DNA of 64,000 bases from Terriglobia bacterium (GTDB lineage Bacteria > Acidobacteriota > Terriglobia > Bryobacterales > Bryobacteraceae): positions 1 to 64,000 of the forward strand of contig JAIQFS010000006.1 of assembly GCA_020073145.1 (NCBI GenBank). The letters are read 5' to 3'. Below the pieces are notes generated by a model. That model had not been told where the DNA came from. It saw nothing but the letters and a program-made list of their open reading frames with translations, and did no database searches. A program made the position numbers and the translations under genes. Each line of letters begins with the position of its first letter. Positions within the stretch are counted from its first letter, which is position 1. Shown here piece after piece: positions 54,631 to 63,129 of the stretch.

Positions 54631-56388
54631 GTGTCCCAGCCGAGGCGTACGCCAATCCAGCACTCGGCGATTCGGCGGCAGCTCGATACGATCGTGGCCC
54701 ACGGTCTATTCGCGCGCTCCGAGCGCATGGCCCGATTTCTGCGCCTGGCCGTCGAGCGGACCCTCGAGGGCAAGTCGGATGAGCTCAAAGAGTACCTCAT
54801 CGGAGTGGAGGTCTTCGACCGCCAGCCGTCCTATGACCCGCGGGTGGATCCCATCGTGCGCGTCGAGGCGCGCCGCCTTCGCTCCAAGCTGAAAGCCTAC
54901 TACGACGGCGACGGACGCCAGGATCCCGTGGTGTTTGACTTCCAGACCGGGACGTACGCGCCGGAGATTCGAATGCGCGAAGACGGCCATGTAGCGCCGC
55001 AGCCGGAGGGCCATACGGTAGCGGTTCTCCCCTTTGCCAACCTCAGCGGGAGCGCCGAGAACGACTACTTCAGCGATGGGCTTACCGAAGAGCTCATCCA
55101 CGCACTGACCAAGTTCAGCGGGATGCGCGTGGTGGCCTGGAACTCCGCAGCCCGATTGCGCGGAGTCGAGCAGGATGTGCTCGAAGTGCGCCGCCAGTTG
55201 AACGTGGCCAACGCGCTCACCGGCAGCGTCCGCATCTCCGGCCAAAGCCTCCGCGTTCGCGCGCAATTGATCGATACGGCGACCGGGGTCTACCTGTGGT
55301 CGGAGACATTCGATCGTGAGATGCAAGACGTCTTCGCCATTCAGGAAGACATTGCCCGCGCCATCGTGCGCACCCTCCGCGTGCAACTGGCCGGCGGAGC
55401 CGAGGCCACACCGGTGGCGCGCAGTCCCGTCAGCGTCAGTTCCTACGACTATTACCTCAAGGGCCGTTATCACCTGCACCGGCGCACGCCAGACGAACTC
55501 ACGCGCAGCCTCGAGAACTTTCAGGCCGCCATTGCCGCCGACCCCGGTTCGGCCCTGGCGCAGGCCGGTGTTGCGGATGCTTACTGCCTGCAAGTGGATT
55601 ACGGGATGCTGCATCCCGCCGAGGGGATTCCCCATGTCCGGGCCGCCGCCATGCGCGCGATCGAGCTCGACGCCAGCCTCGCCGAAGCCTACCCGGCGCT
55701 GGCCGTGATCCGCGCGCATTACGACCGGGAATGGGCGGACGCGGAGAACTTGTACCGCAAGGCGATCTCCCTCAATCCCGGATACGCCATGGCCCACCAG
55801 TGGCTAGCCACCGACTATCTGGCCCTGGTCGGCCGATTCGAAGAAGCAATGGCGGAAATCGACCTCTCTCTCGAACTGGACCCGCTGTCGAGCATCATCC
55901 ACGAGGGGCGAGCTTCTTTCTTTACCCTGCAGCGGCGCTATGACGAGGCCATCCGCGGCTTCCGCGAGATTCTCACGTTCGATCCTTCGTTCTACAAGGC
56001 GTATACCTCTATGGGCCGCGCCTATGCGCAGCAGGGGAAACACGGGGAAGCTTTGGCCATGCTGGAAAAAGGACGCTCGCTGGCGGGCGATGTCCCCAGC
56101 ATCATGGCGGCCATGGGACAGGTCTTTGCCCTTTCAGGCGACACGGCTAGCGCCCGTGGTGTGTTAGCGCAACTCACTGCGCGGGCATTGGAGCGGTACA
56201 TCCCCTCCACTTGCTTTGCTGTGGTCCACCTGGGCTTGGGCGAACCGGCGCGCGCGCTCGACTGGCTGGAGAAGGGCTGCCAGCAGCGGGAACTGTCTTT
56301 GGCGCCGCTCAAGGTACATCCGATCTACGATCCCCTTCGCGGCGAGCCGCGCTTTCAGAACATCCTCCAGACCATGCGGTTTCCCTAG
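54631..56388 (+). CDS. TolB-like/TPR signalling protein with a CadC-associated N-terminal domain
   Basis: A 585-residue protein without a membrane helix. Residues 1-105 match a conserved region found before TPR proteins in acidobacteria and rhizobia (LKEYLIGVEVFDRQPSYDPR and DPIVRVEARRLRSKLKAYY). Residues about 125-265 are the TolB-N/FlgO-like domain (VAVLPFANLSGSAENDYFSD). TPR units follow to about 560. The N-terminal part may bind nucleic acid or protein. The gene starts at a GTG. It resembles the sensor halves of adenylate-cyclase/TPR proteins without a cyclase. Function unknown. Confidence 0.78.
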   Translation: MSQPRRTPIQHSAIRRQLDTIVAHGLFARSERMARFLRLAVERTLEGKSDELKEYLIGVEVFDRQPSYDPRVDPIVRVEARRLRSKLKAYYDGDGRQDPVVFDFQTGTYAPEIRMREDGHVAPQPEGHTVAVLPFANLSGSAENDYFSDGLTEELIHALTKFSGMRVVAWNSAARLRGVEQDVLEVRRQLNVANALTGSVRISGQSLRVRAQLIDTATGVYLWSETFDREMQDVFAIQEDIARAIVRTLRVQLAGGAEATPVARSPVSVSSYDYYLKGRYHLHRRTPDELTRSLENFQAAIAADPGSALAQAGVADAYCLQVDYGMLHPAEGIPHVRAAAMRAIELDASLAEAYPALAVIRAHYDREWADAENLYRKAISLNPGYAMAHQWLATDYLALVGRFEEAMAEIDLSLELDPLSSIIHEGRASFFTLQRRYDEAIRGFREILTFDPSFYKAYTSMGRAYAQQGKHGEALAMLEKGRSLAGDVPSIMAAMGQVFALSGDTASARGVLAQLTARALERYIPSTCFAVVHLGLGEPARALDWLEKGCQQRELSLAPLKVHPIYDPLRGEPRFQNILQTMRFP

Positions 56389-58112: not shown

Positions 58113-58207
58113 CGGGGTCGGGCGCCGACCGGACGCTCACCGGCAAAATGGCGGTATTCGCCGATTTTCGGTCGCACCGGTGGCCCGGGGGCTGATACGC
58201 TCCAGGC

Positions 58208-59038
58208 ATGGACTACGACGATCGCTGGCAGCGCATGCAAGACCGCATGGCACGCCAGCAGGAGCGGTTTGCGCGGCGGCAGGAGCGCTGGGACCGCCGG
58301 CAGGAACGCCGGGCCAACCGGCAGCATTACCGGGGCACGCACAGCGCGGCCCACGGGATCGTCGTCAGCGTGGCCGTAATCGCGATCGGCGCTCTGTTCC
58401 TATTGGACAACCTCGGGATTGTACGTTTCCGCGATGTCTGGCGGTTCTGGCCGGTGGTCCTGATCGCGCTGGGAACGGTCCGGCTGGTGGATTCGCACGG
58501 GACGGCGTCGGTGGTTTGGGGCGCCATGCTCGCAGGCATCGGAGGCCTGCTGCTGCTCGACAACCTGAATATCATCTTCTTTGACTGGCGGCTGTTCTGG
58601 CCCGGAGCCCTCATCGCCGTCGGCATCCTGATGCTGCTCCGGACCACGCAGTGGTCTCATCATGGCCCTGCGGGGCCCAGCGGCGCTCCGCCGCCACCCG
58701 GAACCCTGAACCTGTTTACGATGTTCCAGGGCGGCGAGCATCGCGTGGACGCGCAGGATTTTCGAGGCGGCCAGATCAGCGCCATGTTTGGCGGATTTGA
58801 AATCGATCTGCGGGGCGCAAAGATGGCTGACGCACAATCCACTATCGACGTGAGTCTCATGTTCGGGGGAGCGGAGATCCAGATTCCCGACACCTGGATA
58901 GCGGATGTGCGTGGCATGGGGCTGTTCGGAGCTTTCGTCAATGAAACGCGGCCCCCGCGCCCTGAGGCCAACGTCACACCGCCGCGGCTGATCATAACCG
59001 GCTACGCTATGTTTGGGGGCGTCACCGTCACCAACTGA
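58208..59038 (+). CDS. LiaF-like membrane protein with beta-helix (toast-rack) domain
   Basis: A 276-residue protein. The N-terminal 45 residues are highly basic and Gln/Arg-rich (ARQQERFARRQERWDRRQER). Four hydrophobic segments follow (GIVVSVAVIAIGALFLLDNL, WPVVLIALGTVRLV, AMLAGIGGLLLLDNL, LFWPGALIAVGILMLL), then a C-terminal beta domain (FGGFEIDLRGAKMADAQ, MFGGAEIQIPDTW) as in LiaF/VraT. LiaF proteins control a cell-envelope-stress histidine kinase, and the gene is followed 16 bases later by a LytS-type kinase gene, implying a joint sensor. Confidence 0.85.
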   Translation: MDYDDRWQRMQDRMARQQERFARRQERWDRRQERRANRQHYRGTHSAAHGIVVSVAVIAIGALFLLDNLGIVRFRDVWRFWPVVLIALGTVRLVDSHGTASVVWGAMLAGIGGLLLLDNLNIIFFDWRLFWPGALIAVGILMLLRTTQWSHHGPAGPSGAPPPPGTLNLFTMFQGGEHRVDAQDFRGGQISAMFGGFEIDLRGAKMADAQSTIDVSLMFGGAEIQIPDTWIADVRGMGLFGAFVNETRPPRPEANVTPPRLIITGYAMFGGVTVTN

Positions 59039-59054
59039 CGCGATCGGGCCGTCC

Positions 59055-60068
59055 ATGCATCCCATTCTGATCAGCCGGACCCGGCTGGCATTCTATCTGC
59101 TGGCCTGGGTTCCCCTCGCCGCGGCCTGCACCCTTTTGCTATCGGGCGCCGGACGATTGCCGTGGACCCAAGGCGCCCTGACGGCGGCCGGCTTGGCCCT
59201 GTTCTACGCCCTGGTCTGCCTATCGCCCTGGTATTCCGGCCGGTATCTTCCGTTCCGGCCGTCGGCCCTCGCGAGCCTTCTGCTCCACCACACGGCCGCC
59301 GCGGTGGTGGCGGCCGCGCTCCTGCTGGGAGTGGCCCGGCTGGCGGCGGTGCCCGCATCCCAACAAGCGTTTCTGTTCGGCGCCGGCGTATTGCTCTACC
59401 TGTTAGCGGTGGCGCTGCACTATGTTCTGTTTTCGTTTCAGAGCTCGCGCGAGGCCGAAACGCGCATGCAGGAGGCGCGCGTGCTGGCGCGCGAGGCCGA
59501 ACTGAAGGCTCTCAAAGCCCAGATTAATCCGCATTTTCTATTCAACAGCCTCAACTCCATCAGCGCTCTGGCCACTGTGGATGGCGCGCGCGCCCGCGAA
59601 ATGTGCCTGCTGCTTTCGGACTTTCTGCGTTCCACGTTGGCCCTGGCCGAGGAAGAGATCATTCCCATCGGACGAGAGATTGCGCTGGCTCACGCATACC
59701 TGGAAGTGGAGCGGGTGCGCTTTGGCGAGCGGCTGCGGGTGGCGCAAACGATGGGACCCGGCTGCGGCGATTGCACCGTCCCCTCGCTGATCCTTCAGCC
59801 GCTCGTGGAAAATGCGGTAAAGCACGGGATCGCCGGGCTCTTGGATGGCGGCGAAATCCGCCTCGATGCCTTGTGCGGTAACGGCATGCTCCGCATCACC
59901 GTGGAGAATGATTTCGATACCGATGCCGGTTCGGCGGCTCGCACCGGGCTCGGCCTCGCCAATGTGCGCAATCGTCTGAAAACCTATTACCAGAACCGCG
60001 CCCGCCTCACCACCGAAGTTCGCGAGCATCGGTTCTGCGTCGATCTGGAGCTGCCATGCGTTTCGTAG
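59055..60068 (+). CDS. LytS-type sensor histidine kinase
   Basis: A 337-residue kinase with four N-terminal membrane helices (about 10-130) and no extracellular domain. The His_kinase module has ELKALKAQINPHFLFNSLNS with the phosphorylated histidine at 160, followed by an ATPase domain with LVENAVKHGIAGLLDGG and TGLGLANVRNRL. LytS-type kinases normally pair with a LytTR response regulator, which here is the C-terminal part of the next gene, overlapping by 13 bases. The LiaF-like protein encoded just upstream probably modulates it. Confidence 0.93.
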   Translation: MHPILISRTRLAFYLLAWVPLAAACTLLLSGAGRLPWTQGALTAAGLALFYALVCLSPWYSGRYLPFRPSALASLLLHHTAAAVVAAALLLGVARLAAVPASQQAFLFGAGVLLYLLAVALHYVLFSFQSSREAETRMQEARVLAREAELKALKAQINPHFLFNSLNSISALATVDGARAREMCLLLSDFLRSTLALAEEEIIPIGREIALAHAYLEVERVRFGERLRVAQTMGPGCGDCTVPSLILQPLVENAVKHGIAGLLDGGEIRLDALCGNGMLRITVENDFDTDAGSAARTGLGLANVRNRLKTYYQNRARLTTEVREHRFCVDLELPCVS

Positions 60069-61696
60069 CGGGAGATGCGATTGCGCAATACCGGGTGGTC
60101 GCCGCCTTGGGCGCGGGCGGCATGGGCCAGGTATATCTGGCGCTGGACACCCGTCTGGACCGCCAGGTCGCTGTCAAGGTGCTCTCCGAGGAACTGGCCG
60201 GCGACACCTCCGCCTTGCAGCGCTTCCTGCTGGAGGCCCGGCTGGCGTCTGCGCTCAATCATCCCAACATCACCCACATCTATGAAATCGGCGAAACCGC
60301 GGGCGCCCCCTTCCTGGTGATGGAATACGTGGAAGGCCAGCCCCTGAGCCAACGGCTGGAGCAGGGCGCGCTGCCGGCCGAGGAAGCCTGTGGCATCGCG
60401 GCGCAAGTGGCGGATGCGCTCGATGCCGCCCACACCAAGCGCATTGTGCATCGTGACATCAAGCCGGCCAACATCATGGTGGGCGCACGCGGACACGTCA
60501 AAGTGCTGGATTTCGGTCTGGCCAAACTGCAAGCGAAGCTGCGGCCGTCGGAAGAGACGCAGTTTCTGACGCGTGAGGGAGTGGTGCTGGGGACCGTGAA
60601 CTATATGAGCCCCGAGCAAGCCATGGGCCGCGAAGTCGGCCCCACCGGGGATCTCTTCAGCCTGGGCGCCGTACTCTACGAGATGTGCACCGGGCGCGTC
60701 CCGTTTGCCGGCGGCACGGTCCAGGAGACGCTCGCACGGCTGCTCCACGGCACGCCCGAAGCCATGGCCCGATTCCAGTACTACGTGCCGGAGGCCCTCG
60801 ACCGGATCGTGCGCAAGTGCCTGCAGAGGGACCCGGACCAGCGGTATCAGTCGGCGCGGGAAATCGCCATCGACCTGCGCGCCATGCAGGACCCGCCGCG
60901 TCCCGCACCCTCGCTCGATGAAAATCGCCAACGCCCGCCGGCCCACGGCCGGCGGATTACCGCGGCGATCGTGGACGATGAGGAACTCGCCCGCCACCTT
61001 CTGCGCGAGTATCTGCAAAGCATCCCGGACATCGACATTGTGGCCGAGTGCGCCAACGGCTTCGAAGCCGTGAAGGCCATTGCGGAGCGGAAACCGGACC
61101 TGGTGCTTCTCGACGTGCAGATGCCCAAGCTGGACGGCTTCGAAGTGCTGGAGCTGATTGGCCGGGACGTGGCCGTGATTTTCACTACCGCGTATGACAC
61201 CTACGCCATGCGCGCCTTCGACGCCAACGCGGTGGATTACCTGCTCAAGCCGTTCCGCCTGGAACGCTTCCAGACCGCGGTAGAGCGCGCCCGCCAGCGC
61301 ATCGGCACGCCGGCGCCGCCGCCCGAGGACCTGGCTGCCGCCGCCCGAGGACCGGAACAGTACGCGGCGCGCCTGGTGGTGAAAGACGGAACCAAAGTCC
61401 ACGTGATCCCGGTCGAGCGCCTGGACTATGCCGAATCGCAAGACGATTACGTCGCGCTGCACAGCGAAGGCAAGAGCCACCTCAAACAGCAAACCATTTC
61501 CAGTCTGGAAGGGGCACTCGACCCGCGGCTGTTCGTGCGGATTCACCGTTCCTATCTGGTGAACCTGGCACGTGTGGCGCGGATCGAACCTTACGGGAAA
61601 GACAGCCGGGTGGCGGTGCTGGCCGATGGCACCCAGCTTCCGGTCAGTCGAGCGGGCTACGACCGCCTGAAGGCGCTGCTCGACGAGCGTACCTAG
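60056..61696 (+). CDS. Ser/Thr protein kinase fused to a LytTR response regulator
   Basis: A 546-residue protein joining three domains. Residues about 10-275 are a complete bacterial Ser/Thr kinase: glycine loop LGAGGMGQVYLALD, Lys41 in VAVKVL, HRDIKPAN at 132-139, DFG at 152-154 and GTVNYMSPEQA. Residues about 301-418 are a receiver domain with the acidic pair at 307-308, phosphoacceptor Asp353 in LLLDVQMPKLDG and Lys398 in YLLKPF. Residues about 437-540 are a LytTR DNA-binding domain (VIPVERLDYAESQDDYVALH, FVRIHRSYLVNLARVARIEP). The linker 281-300 is Pro/Arg-rich and no membrane helix is present. The open frame is continuous, with no stop or frameshift between parts. It would receive phosphate from LytS and also from its own kinase, coupling both systems to transcription. 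Confidence 0.95.
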   Translation: MRFVAGDAIAQYRVVAALGAGGMGQVYLALDTRLDRQVAVKVLSEELAGDTSALQRFLLEARLASALNHPNITHIYEIGETAGAPFLVMEYVEGQPLSQRLEQGALPAEEACGIAAQVADALDAAHTKRIVHRDIKPANIMVGARGHVKVLDFGLAKLQAKLRPSEETQFLTREGVVLGTVNYMSPEQAMGREVGPTGDLFSLGAVLYEMCTGRVPFAGGTVQETLARLLHGTPEAMARFQYYVPEALDRIVRKCLQRDPDQRYQSAREIAIDLRAMQDPPRPAPSLDENRQRPPAHGRRITAAIVDDEELARHLLREYLQSIPDIDIVAECANGFEAVKAIAERKPDLVLLDVQMPKLDGFEVLELIGRDVAVIFTTAYDTYAMRAFDANAVDYLLKPFRLERFQTAVERARQRIGTPAPPPEDLAAAARGPEQYAARLVVKDGTKVHVIPVERLDYAESQDDYVALHSEGKSHLKQQTISSLEGALDPRLFVRIHRSYLVNLARVARIEPYGKDSRVAVLADGTQLPVSRAGYDRLKALLDERT

Positions 61697-61780: not shown

Positions 61781-62236
61781 GTGGAAACCCCGGTCCCTCA
61801 ACTCATCACCATCCTTTCGGCATCCATCGCGCCAGTGATCGTGATCTCGGGCGTCGGTCTGCTGCTGCTGAGCATGACCAACCGTTACAGCCGCGTCATC
61901 GACCGCGCCCGGGAGCTGACCCGGGACCTGGAGGGAGCCGGCGAGACGCCGCGCCGCAATCTGATCGTGGAGGAACTGCGAATTCTGTACCGGCGCGCCC
62001 GAATTCTGCGCCTCGCCATCATCCTGAGTTCGGTGAGCATTCTGTTTGTCGGCGTCACCGTATTTTCGCTATTCGCGGGGCAAGTGCTCGGAGTGCGAGC
62101 CGACACGGTCTCGGTGCCATGCTTCGCCTTTTGCCTGATCGCCCTGATCGGCTCGCTCTATTTCTTCATCCGCGACGTCGGGATTTCGCTCACGGCGCTC
62201 GAACTGGAAATTGCTCACTACGTAAAACAAAACTGA
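61781..62236 (+). CDS. DUF2721 family membrane protein
   Basis: A 151-residue protein with three membrane helices (about 10-32, 78-100, 112-130) separated by a cytoplasmic Arg-rich loop (NRYSRVIDRARELTRDLEG). The pattern matches DUF2721, of unknown function. It starts at a GTG. It lies 84 bases after the kinase-regulator gene and may be separately transcribed; a small TGCTG/CAGCA hairpin lies just before it. Confidence 0.85.
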   Translation: METPVPQLITILSASIAPVIVISGVGLLLLSMTNRYSRVIDRARELTRDLEGAGETPRRNLIVEELRILYRRARILRLAIILSSVSILFVGVTVFSLFAGQVLGVRADTVSVPCFAFCLIALIGSLYFFIRDVGISLTALELEIAHYVKQN

Positions 62237-62268
62237 CCCCACCGCCGGCCATCGGGTAGAATCAAAGG

Positions 62269-62706
62269 GTGCCCTACCCTGAACAGTTCATTGCTCCCAT
62301 GCGGGCGGACCTCACCCGATTTGGAGTCGAAGAGGCCCGGACTCCGGCCGAGGTGGACCGGCTCCTGGGACCGGACAGCGGCACTGTCCTGATGGTGGTG
62401 AACTCCATCTGCGGGTGCGCCGCGGGAAGGGCACGGCCCGCCATTGGGATGGCCTTGCAGCATTCGGTTCGGCCCTCGAAGGTGGCGACCGTGTTCGCCG
62501 GCGGAGACGGAGCGGCCGTAGCCCATCTGCGCGCCCTGCTGTCCGCTTATCCGCCGTCCTCGCCCTCGATGGCCCTTTTCCAGAACGGCAAGCCCGTCCA
62601 CATGTTGCACCGCAGCGACATCGAGCGGCGCGAACCGGCGGAGATTGCGGAATTGTTGAGGGGCGCCTTCGACCGCTACTGCGCCGCGAACGCATCGGCG
62701 CAGTGA
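62269..62706 (+). CDS. BrxA/BrxB-family bacilliredoxin
   Basis: A 145-residue thioredoxin-like protein with the CGC active site in VVNSICGCAAGRARPAIG and the typical FQNGKPVHMLHRSDIE. The start is a GTG. Bacilliredoxins remove bacillithiol from oxidised proteins in Bacillus; many acidobacteria encode homologues without a proven thiol partner. It precedes a STAS gene by 66 bases with a palindrome between. Confidence 0.92.
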   Translation: MPYPEQFIAPMRADLTRFGVEEARTPAEVDRLLGPDSGTVLMVVNSICGCAAGRARPAIGMALQHSVRPSKVATVFAGGDGAAVAHLRALLSAYPPSSPSMALFQNGKPVHMLHRSDIERREPAEIAELLRGAFDRYCAANASAQ

Positions 62707-62719
62707 CTCGCGACCCGTC

Positions 62720-62740
62720 CCGTTACCGCATCTGTAACGG
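62720..62740. promoter_or_regulatory. 7-base-arm palindrome upstream of the STAS gene
   Basis: CCGTTAC (62720-62726) and GTAACGG (62734-62740) are exact complements around CGCATCT, 33 bases before the ATG at 62773. It could be an operator or a 3' structure of the bacilliredoxin message. No T-run follows. Confidence 0.4.
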
Positions 62741-62772
62741 AACTGAAACCTCCGTTTGCTAGACTCTCGCAA

Positions 62773-63129
62773 ATGGACCCCCTCGAAATCCGCAGTGACG
62801 AGAGTTTAAGCGGCTCCCGCACGTTGTTCTTGAAAGGCCCTGTGACCCTCGGGAACATCTTTGAATTCCAGGACCTCGTCCGCCAGGTGCAGGCCAAGTC
62901 CTTGATCATCGTGCTCGATGAAGTTTCGTACATGGATTCGGCGGGGCTCGGAGCCATCCTGGGCGCCTATGCCTCGTGCCAGCGCCATGGGCGCCAGTTC
63001 GGCCTGGCAAACGTTTCGCCGCGGGTCCGTACCGTCCTCCAAGTCGCCGAGGTCGATACGCTCATTCCCTGGTATGACACCTTCGAGGCAGCCAGATTGC
63101 ACCTCGCCTCCCAGGCGGAGAGCGCGTAG
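62773..63129 (+). CDS. STAS-domain protein (anti-sigma factor antagonist type)
   Basis: A 118-residue single-domain protein with the family phosphoserine region DEVSYMDSAGLGAILGAYAS and the flanking strands SRTLFLKGPVTLGNIFEFQD. The DSAG serine is the residue normally phosphorylated by an anti-sigma kinase. The partner kinase is not in the window. It may act in partner switching or as a modulator of a general stress pathway. Confidence 0.9.
   Translation: MDPLEIRSDESLSGSRTLFLKGPVTLGNIFEFQDLVRQVQAKSLIIVLDEVSYMDSAGLGAILGAYASCQRHGRQFGLANVSPRVRTVLQVAEVDTLIPWYDTFEAARLHLASQAESA

Follow-up and report, generated by a model that had tools for sequence, protein, structure and literature searches.

A Ser/Thr kinase fused to the LytTR regulator of a LiaF-LytS locus in Bryobacteraceae, with a conserved operator-like repeat and a probable history of gain and loss

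A stretch of 64,000 nucleotides from a Terriglobia bacterium of the family Bryobacteraceae (contig JAIQFS010000006.1; source assembly of 6.32 Mb in 88 contigs), hereafter the window, raises the question of whether a Ser/Thr kinase can be a regular part of a two-component response regulator, and what it would do there. On the + strand, a liaF-like gene (58208-59038), a lytS gene (59055-60068) and a third gene (60056-61696), which we call the fusion gene, follow one another. The original prediction on this DNA, made from the letters alone, read the third gene as a single frame with a Ser/Thr kinase, a receiver with phosphoacceptor Asp353 and a LytTR DNA-binding domain, and Pfam searches bear this out: the frame encodes 546 residues with no internal stop, and matches Pkinase at residues 12-265 (7e-52), Response_reg at 304-409 (6e-25) and LytTR at 447-542 (2e-22). 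The predicted layout also holds, with the fusion gene ATG and the end of lytS (whose stop ends at 60068) sharing 13 bases, and lytS starting at 59055, 16 bases downstream of the liaF stop at 59038; this start matches that of most aligned orthologues (N-terminus MHP). As judged from domains, residues and relatives, the kinase is fused to the regulator of a LiaF-LytS-LytTR module of known type, in front of which relatives share an operator-like repeat; over time the kinase was probably both gained and lost. The features are as follows.

58136-58164, + strand: putative LytTR operator, a direct repeat of CTCACCGG (58136-58143) and TTCGCCGA (58157-58164); from the 21-base period in relatives and the position weight matrix (PWM) score.
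58193-58201, + strand: extended -10-like element TGATACGCT (TGnTAnnnT); from sequence reading, and by eye in several relatives.
58208-59038, + strand: LiaF-like membrane protein with an N-terminal helix, four membrane-region helices and a beta C-terminal domain; from PF18917, PF22570 and a model with a predicted local distance difference test score (pLDDT) of 83.
59055-60068, + strand: LytS/BtsS-type histidine kinase with about four predicted transmembrane (TM) helices; from PF06580, hydropathy and conserved residues.
60056-60895, + strand: Ser/Thr kinase domain, fusion residues about 1-280; from PF00069 and catalytic residues.
60896-60952, + strand: flexible linker, fusion residues 281-299; from low pLDDT and no invariant positions.
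60953-61300, + strand: receiver domain with phosphoacceptor Asp353; from PF00072 and conserved residues.
61391-61696, + strand: LytTR DNA-binding domain and stop; from PF04397.

The catalytic residues that had been read as intact (Lys41, HRD and DFG) are indeed so, and are conserved across the fusions; the complete set comprises Lys41, Glu60, HRD 132-134 and DFG 152-154 in the kinase, and Asp307/308, Asp353, Thr378 and Lys398 in the receiver. The Gly-loop, Lys41, Glu60, the catalytic Asp134 and Asn139 are kept in 25/25 fusions reaching them (24 of the window's family and G597, introduced below), DFG is present in 26/26, and so are receiver residues Asp307, Asp308, Asp353, Thr378 and Lys398. 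In two fusions (G061 and G455; loci L156 and L162) the HRD Arg is replaced by Cys, and these HCD kinases are possibly of the non-RD type. The best PDB sequence match of the fused kinase is PknB (2.8e-55), and the fusion is PknB-type by its complete catalytic residues; it does not have the TM segment and extracellular repeats that define PASTA kinases, with model NF033483 scoring 325 bits against a cut-off of 450 and covering the kinase part only, and hydropathy finding no TM segment in the fusion protein. All three domains are confident in the predicted structure, whose predicted template modelling score of 0.53 indicates no fixed domain arrangement; the activation loop (155-178) and the linker (281-297, pLDDT <50) are disordered in the model, and region 281-300 holds no invariant position among the aligned fusions.

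The nearest kinase-domain relatives found are tetratricopeptide repeat (TPR) Ser/Thr kinases of the same bacteria, 51-57% identical. The six non-fused kinases examined as its closest relatives all possess a TPR half at the C-terminus, where the fusion has REC-LytTR instead; a TM segment was found in three of the four checked, the fourth having none at the threshold used. The window genome has more than 50 matches to the kinase part and only one full-length match. The window also encodes, at 54631-56388, a TPR-rich protein without a kinase; towards its C-terminus it shares 33-36% identity with the TPR half found in the nearest relatives of the fused kinase.

The fusion is real, conserved and uncommon. 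The kinase lies in frame with the receiver in at least 25 of the 237 genomes of the window's family (window included), 96 of which have a match at E<=1e-90; among these fusions, the kinase of G300 is interrupted by a contig end, that of G388 was identified from inspection of its frame, and loci L023 and L024 are G503 and G142, each counted once. Full-length fusions from other genomes matched the window protein at 57-78% identity, and the range is 56-78% in the alignment of 21 from the family. Among 399 genomes drawn from the class, 74 had a match at E<=1e-95, and no match beyond the window's family extended into the kinase; a draw of 396 genomes from the phylum gave one further fusion, G597, whose genome contains another REC-LytTR match as well, this one lacking the kinase. 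Of 193 genomes in the class of G597, 7 have the fusion, all in family f53, at 48-52% identity, with kinase and receiver in one frame in 7/7 (in G895 a stop falls only at the very end of the match). In these seven, HRD and DFG are always kept, and the canonical Gly-loop pattern is found in 4/7, as is the receiver LLKP pattern. Since the searches scored only the best first-look candidates of each genome (six in the family, three in the class and phylum draws, seven in the class of G597, and 150 in the site search described below), a lower-ranked fusion or site could be missed; long open frames in G469 (family) and in G857, G886 and G715 (class of G597) stand outside the counts.

The original prediction called a kinase in front of such a regulator unusual, and these frequencies agree with it; the architecture was neither frequent in the genomes searched nor characterised in open-licence titles and abstract openings, where mostly narrow searches found no Pkinase-REC-LytTR fusion. 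Excerpts from a review that treats Ser/Thr kinases in relation to transcription (PMC4601284) and from a survey of myxobacteria (PMC7694542) contain none either. The wider set of relatives comprises the best 80 of 592, and fusions in other phyla are possible. Viral contigs gave matches to the kinase part only, and no plasmid record had 80% of the query in one place. The kinase similarity of a Chlorohelix plasmid protein runs into the receiver region (residues 10-398), as does that of a Chloroflexi contig among the best 80 of 592 (residues 10-419), so that kinase-receiver chains as such may not be unique. Kinase matches of L049, L053 and L062 (Aminicenantes and Chloroflexi contigs) also extend into the receiver region, to residues 347-419, as possible kinase-receiver chains.

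Is the kinase then needed by the regulator? Searching for the architecture across genomes and mapping its neighbours, as proposed with the original prediction, showed what the common form is: the LiaF-LytS-REC-LytTR backbone usually has no kinase. Stand-alone REC-LytTR orthologues are 49-73% identical. In most of the loci examined from the class, and also in two Vicinamibacteria metagenome-assembled genomes (MAGs) and a Pseudohongiella MAG, they stand behind LytS and LiaF with the gene order unchanged; Bryobacterales MAGs with close stand-alone orthologues are present among the best 80 of 592 relatives. Exceptions are L014 and L025, where the regulator faces LytS, and L017, with no LytS in its short flank. 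Where a fused locus has the usual order, the kinase comes after LytS and before the receiver; G436 and the f53 clade have the fusion gene on the strand opposite to liaF-lytS, and in G061 and G455 neither liaF nor lytS is found in the stretch around the fusion. In f53 (L167, L258-L263) the fusion gene is divergent from liaF-lytS, with an operator-like site between them. Given that the backbone without kinase keeps the gene order in most loci and the same upstream repeat, this comparison indicates that the regulator works without the kinase.

This repeat was found where the original prediction, which itself contained none, had proposed looking for LytTR binding sites, upstream of 58208; further sites precede other genes in some relatives. 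In 44 of 46 regions upstream of liaF, fused or not, several of them from near relatives, the half-site YTYRCCGR occurs twice at a period of 21 bases, no more than one mismatch being allowed in each copy. Half-site pairs number 46 at 21 bases, and no other spacing between 9 and 60 exceeds 4. A PWM built without the window site scores that site at 31.0 bits, against 17.7 or less for 16 loci around other pattern matches in the genome; with a PWM built without G597, 7/7 f53 loci show a site of 15-26 bits in the interval that separates the fusion match from the liaF match. LytTR operators consist of two repeats of 9-11 nt separated by a spacer of 11-13 nt (PMC4847170) and lie upstream of the -35 element (PMC6193735, PMC11347149), mostly by 10 bp in operons of the LytTR Regulatory System (PMC6193735). 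The window repeat fits this published geometry at the sequence level; the repeat at 58136-58164 is thus a putative LytTR operator, and implies autoregulation of the operon. The TGATACGCT box follows the second repeat at a distance of 28 bases and is 6 bases away from the liaF ATG, with similar boxes seen by eye at a similar distance in several relatives; a promoter scan found no sigma-70 consensus at liaF. Because this extended -10-like box ends only 6 bases before the ATG, the liaF message may be leaderless, or its start codon may be downstream (Met10 or Met14).

The DNA output looks narrow in the window genome, because only the liaF site reached E<0.1 there (150 of 7912 first-look candidates scored). 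A large regulon in this genome was considered and rejected, as the pattern matches 17 times with the operator spacing and 16 times with a control spacing, which is no excess. A profile search in 18 chosen genomes recovered the own-operon site in 17, largely by construction, since the profile was made from 31 of the 44 sites; in G061 (L156, L233), whose site is not in the profile, the site precedes a separate liaF-like gene about 155 kb from the unlinked fusion on the same contig. Fourteen places beyond own-operon sites were viewed (ten of them scanned for domains), a set apart from three at E<=0.01 in G061, G195 and G142. The genes after these sites include export types, namely two ABC ATPases, an outer-membrane efflux protein, and a MacB-like permease and a membrane-fusion-like protein (both below Pfam cut-offs), as well as a liaF-like gene, a TetR regulator, a P450, a Yip1 protein and an unassigned membrane protein; the remaining sites precede a methyltransferase-like protein (by reading) or, in three cases, no clear downstream gene, and several of the 14 overlap other open frames. 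The sites are few and their E-values rough; within that limit they point to roles in the envelope and in export. The export-gene sites in relatives (L215, L229, L225, L227 and L232; near 1501-1535) lie 26-137 bases before the gene starts.

How was such a protein formed? In two careful kinase trees (50 and 52 rows, with TPR kinases added and G300 left out), the 24 family fusion kinases form one clade (support 90/88 and 95/92). For the receiver-LytTR parts of the same set, 25 fusions here, a single clade is rejected by the approximately unbiased (AU) test (p 1.25e-07): seven stand-alone rows are nested among the fusion regulators and the starred branches force at least four changes, a first quick regulator tree having required nine. 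The regulator tree left out 13 long or duplicate rows and G597, and its branch holding the whole set is weak (30/55). With a single clade for the kinase parts and none for the receiver-LytTR parts, the probable history is that the family acquired the kinase from TPR kinases in one event and lost it several times; one gain with several clean losses is the simplest reading of the trees, and the five nested stand-alone genes inspected show no remnant of the linker at their N-termini. Against this stands a wider quick kinase tree (104 rows, 3 changes), which placed four non-fused TPR rows (L020, L021, L022 and L029, of which L020 and L029 are identical) among the fusions; they fall outside the fusions in the careful trees. 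Mantel tests of the kinase against the regulator half, from which G300 and G597 were left out, gave r 0.76 with 24 fusions (0 of 2000 permutations) and r 0.57 with 13 representatives (4 of 5000); by this correlation the two halves of the fusion are co-inherited.

In the tree that includes f53, its fusion kinases fall in with a different kinase lineage (98/91). A single origin of all fusions, with f1 and f53 kinases constrained to one group, costs 22 log units and is marginally rejected (AU p 0.048); a single origin with G597 alone is not rejected (p 0.133). From the grouping and the marginal p value, the f53 fusion is probably a second one, independent of that of the family.

The histidine kinase side of the locus is also preserved. 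The LytS-type protein matches PF06580 and carries His174 and an N-box, its HATPase_c match (23.3 bits) being under the curated cut-off of 26.4; His174, Asn267, Gly312 and Gly314 are found in 30/30 aligned LytS proteins from fused and stand-alone loci. LytS proper carries a 5TM-5TMR_LYT sensor domain, for which no Pfam match at E<=0.001 was obtained in this protein, where about four hydrophobic helices are found instead. Because the phosphotransfer residues of LytS and receiver are conserved, the His-Asp route is, on this evidence, kept in the family fusions. The LiaF-like protein matches PF18917 and PF22570, both above the Pfam cut-off. Its match to LiaF-like_C is weak (0.0016; 18.7 bits against a cut-off of 29), and this domain appears at E<=0.01 in 29/29 aligned LiaF-like proteins; structure comparison of its C-terminus, made with a toast-rack fold in mind, gave no match at E<=0.001 with Foldseek or at Z>=8 with VIA-align.

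With these components, we give close to an even chance to a reading in which an autoregulated envelope-stress two-component module, whose regulator gained an N-terminal PknB-type kinase, would have two outputs, DNA binding and Ser/Thr phosphorylation. Its domains, residues, gene order, repeat and history come from sequence, and from these we infer the signal, the binding, the direction of control, the activation of the kinase and its substrates. The LiaF-like protein would relay membrane disturbance to LytS, which would phosphorylate Asp353 and cause the receiver to dimerise; LytTR pairs would then occupy the 21-base direct repeat and turn on their own operon and, in some relatives, export genes. 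Dimerisation would also join the two flexibly tethered kinase domains, allowing autophosphorylation in the Thr172/Thr180 region, after which the activated kinase would phosphorylate other proteins. In its full form, that Asp353 phosphorylation by LytS both sets LytTR on the operator and switches on the attached kinase by dimerisation, in an arrangement evolved twice and discarded several times, the proposal is tentative and falls somewhat short of an even chance. The kinase as output is favoured because it has no sensor half, the regulator half has no fusion-specific Ser/Thr and the DNA output is narrow; the export-gene sites in relatives would fit envelope stress. A direction in which the receiver drives the kinase fits at least as well as the reverse.

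Several points weigh against the two-output reading. Stand-alone regulators also have few strong sites, so that a narrow DNA output is not specific to the fusion; control of the kinase by the receiver is something we infer only, the signal given to the LiaF-like protein is taken by analogy, and the substrates of the kinase are hypothetical. In addition, Ser/Thr 480, 499 and 531, common to fused and stand-alone forms, could be targets of the kinase, which makes an input role possible.

Such an input role is in our view rather unlikely, though it has precedents in trans and the three LytTR residues just named are nearly invariant. In this reading the fused kinase would respond to a cytoplasmic cue or to activation by other kinases, and would then phosphorylate in cis the receiver or the LytTR domain of its own chain, making His-Asp and Ser/Thr signals converge on one transcription factor. 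StkP phosphorylates the LytTR regulator ComE at Thr128, raising its DNA binding (PMC6010298), and PrkC phosphorylates WalR within its receiver (PMC4478028). The fused kinase, however, has no remaining sensor domain, and a comparison of 26 fusion rows with 51 stand-alone rows (45 of the latter distinct) gives no column of the receiver-LytTR part with a Ser/Thr that every fusion shares and every stand-alone form lacks. As candidates for an intramolecular phosphosite, columns 401, 407 and 467 are richer in Ser/Thr in fusions by more than 0.35 and column 482 by 0.35, and they were rejected, since in none is Ser/Thr both universal among fusions and missing from the stand-alone forms; column 533 is Ser/Thr-poorer in fusions, and columns 296 and 546 rest on few rows. 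The original prediction had His-Asp and Ser/Thr signalling converging on one factor; its His-Asp part is supported by the phosphotransfer residues, which are kept, and its Ser/Thr part finds neither a fusion-specific Ser/Thr in the regulator half nor a TPR half in the protein.

The soluble kinase on a flexible linker to a DNA-binding domain, and a repeat kept in both fusion lineages, would also suit a role in delivery, LytTR bringing the kinase to its own promoter or the nucleoid to modify RNA polymerase or neighbouring proteins, with the receiver gating residence only; this has no known partner and derives from the architecture alone, and we regard it as improbable. We put just as little weight on the kinase being a nearly neutral passenger that is being lost, with no regular function in the circuit. 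Its absence from the seven nested stand-alone regulators, the lower identity between G000 and G003 in the kinase half (74%) than in the regulator half (86%) and the canonical Gly-loop in only 4/7 of the second clade would agree with it; the catalytic residues in 25/25 fusions argue otherwise, as does the other fusion clade, that of a different class, which keeps HRD and DFG in 7/7. The dN/dS of the kinase part, well below 1 in all 15 pairs (0.03-0.23, Nei-Gojobori), argues otherwise too, although these ratios are rough, with dS >1 in most pairs and YN00 failing for many, and dN/dS is higher in the kinase than in the regulator part in 11 of the 14 pairs with both values. From the catalytic residues and these ratios taken together, the kinase is under selection. 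Finally, an artefact, whether by frameshift, which had been named with the original prediction as what would overturn it, or by chimeric assembly of separate kinase and regulator genes, has practically no chance of being the explanation; nothing was found in its favour, the frame has no internal stop, and the same fusion occurs at full length in independent genomes, 24 others in the family including G061 on a 6.18-Mb contig.

Compared with known systems, the locus combines familiar parts. As in LiaFSR and VraTSR, a LiaF-type protein with TM helices and a C-terminal domain stands beside a histidine kinase and a response regulator. LiaFSR has a LiaS-type kinase and a LiaR-type helix-turn-helix regulator, whereas the window kinase is of the PF06580 (LytS) type and its regulator is a LytTR protein with a kinase in front. 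LytS/LytTR systems such as BtsSR/YehUT, AlgZR and YpdAB share with it the PF06580 kinase, a REC-LytTR regulator with phosphoacceptor Asp and the paired-repeat geometry, to which the window adds the N-terminal Ser/Thr kinase and the LiaF-like operon partner; the best NCBIfam REC-LytTR model on the fusion is BtsR NF008677 (165 bits, below its cut-off of 246). The LytTR Regulatory System uses a regulator without the receiver Asp and a membrane inhibitor without a kinase (PMC6193735), in contrast to the Asp353 and PF06580 kinase found here. LiaI-LiaF-TM/Toastrack proteins beside LytTR or two-component genes are a described context, with a LytTR example in Firmicutes (PMC11237479); the operons in excerpts of that article have no Ser/Thr kinase, and its main text contains neither "acidobacteri" nor "serine". 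In StkP-ComE and PrkC-WalR the kinase and the response regulator are linked in trans, in the direction from kinase to regulator, whereas here they form one chain. On the 3' side of the fusion gene (window 61781-63129) lie DUF2721, PF06491 disulphide isomerase and STAS genes, which were rejected as members of the system, with no match in the other compared loci (flanks of <1 to 8 kb).

Crosstalk in trans between Ser/Thr kinases and two-component systems is hard to separate from the other work of the kinase. Here, kinase, receiver and DNA-binding domain are held in one chain, and natural versions with and without the kinase share the repeat upstream of liaF, so that the direction and purpose of the crosstalk are directly testable, with the repeat as a ready read-out. 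If the two-output reading is true, a two-component system would in these bacteria directly start a branch of Ser/Thr phosphorylation.

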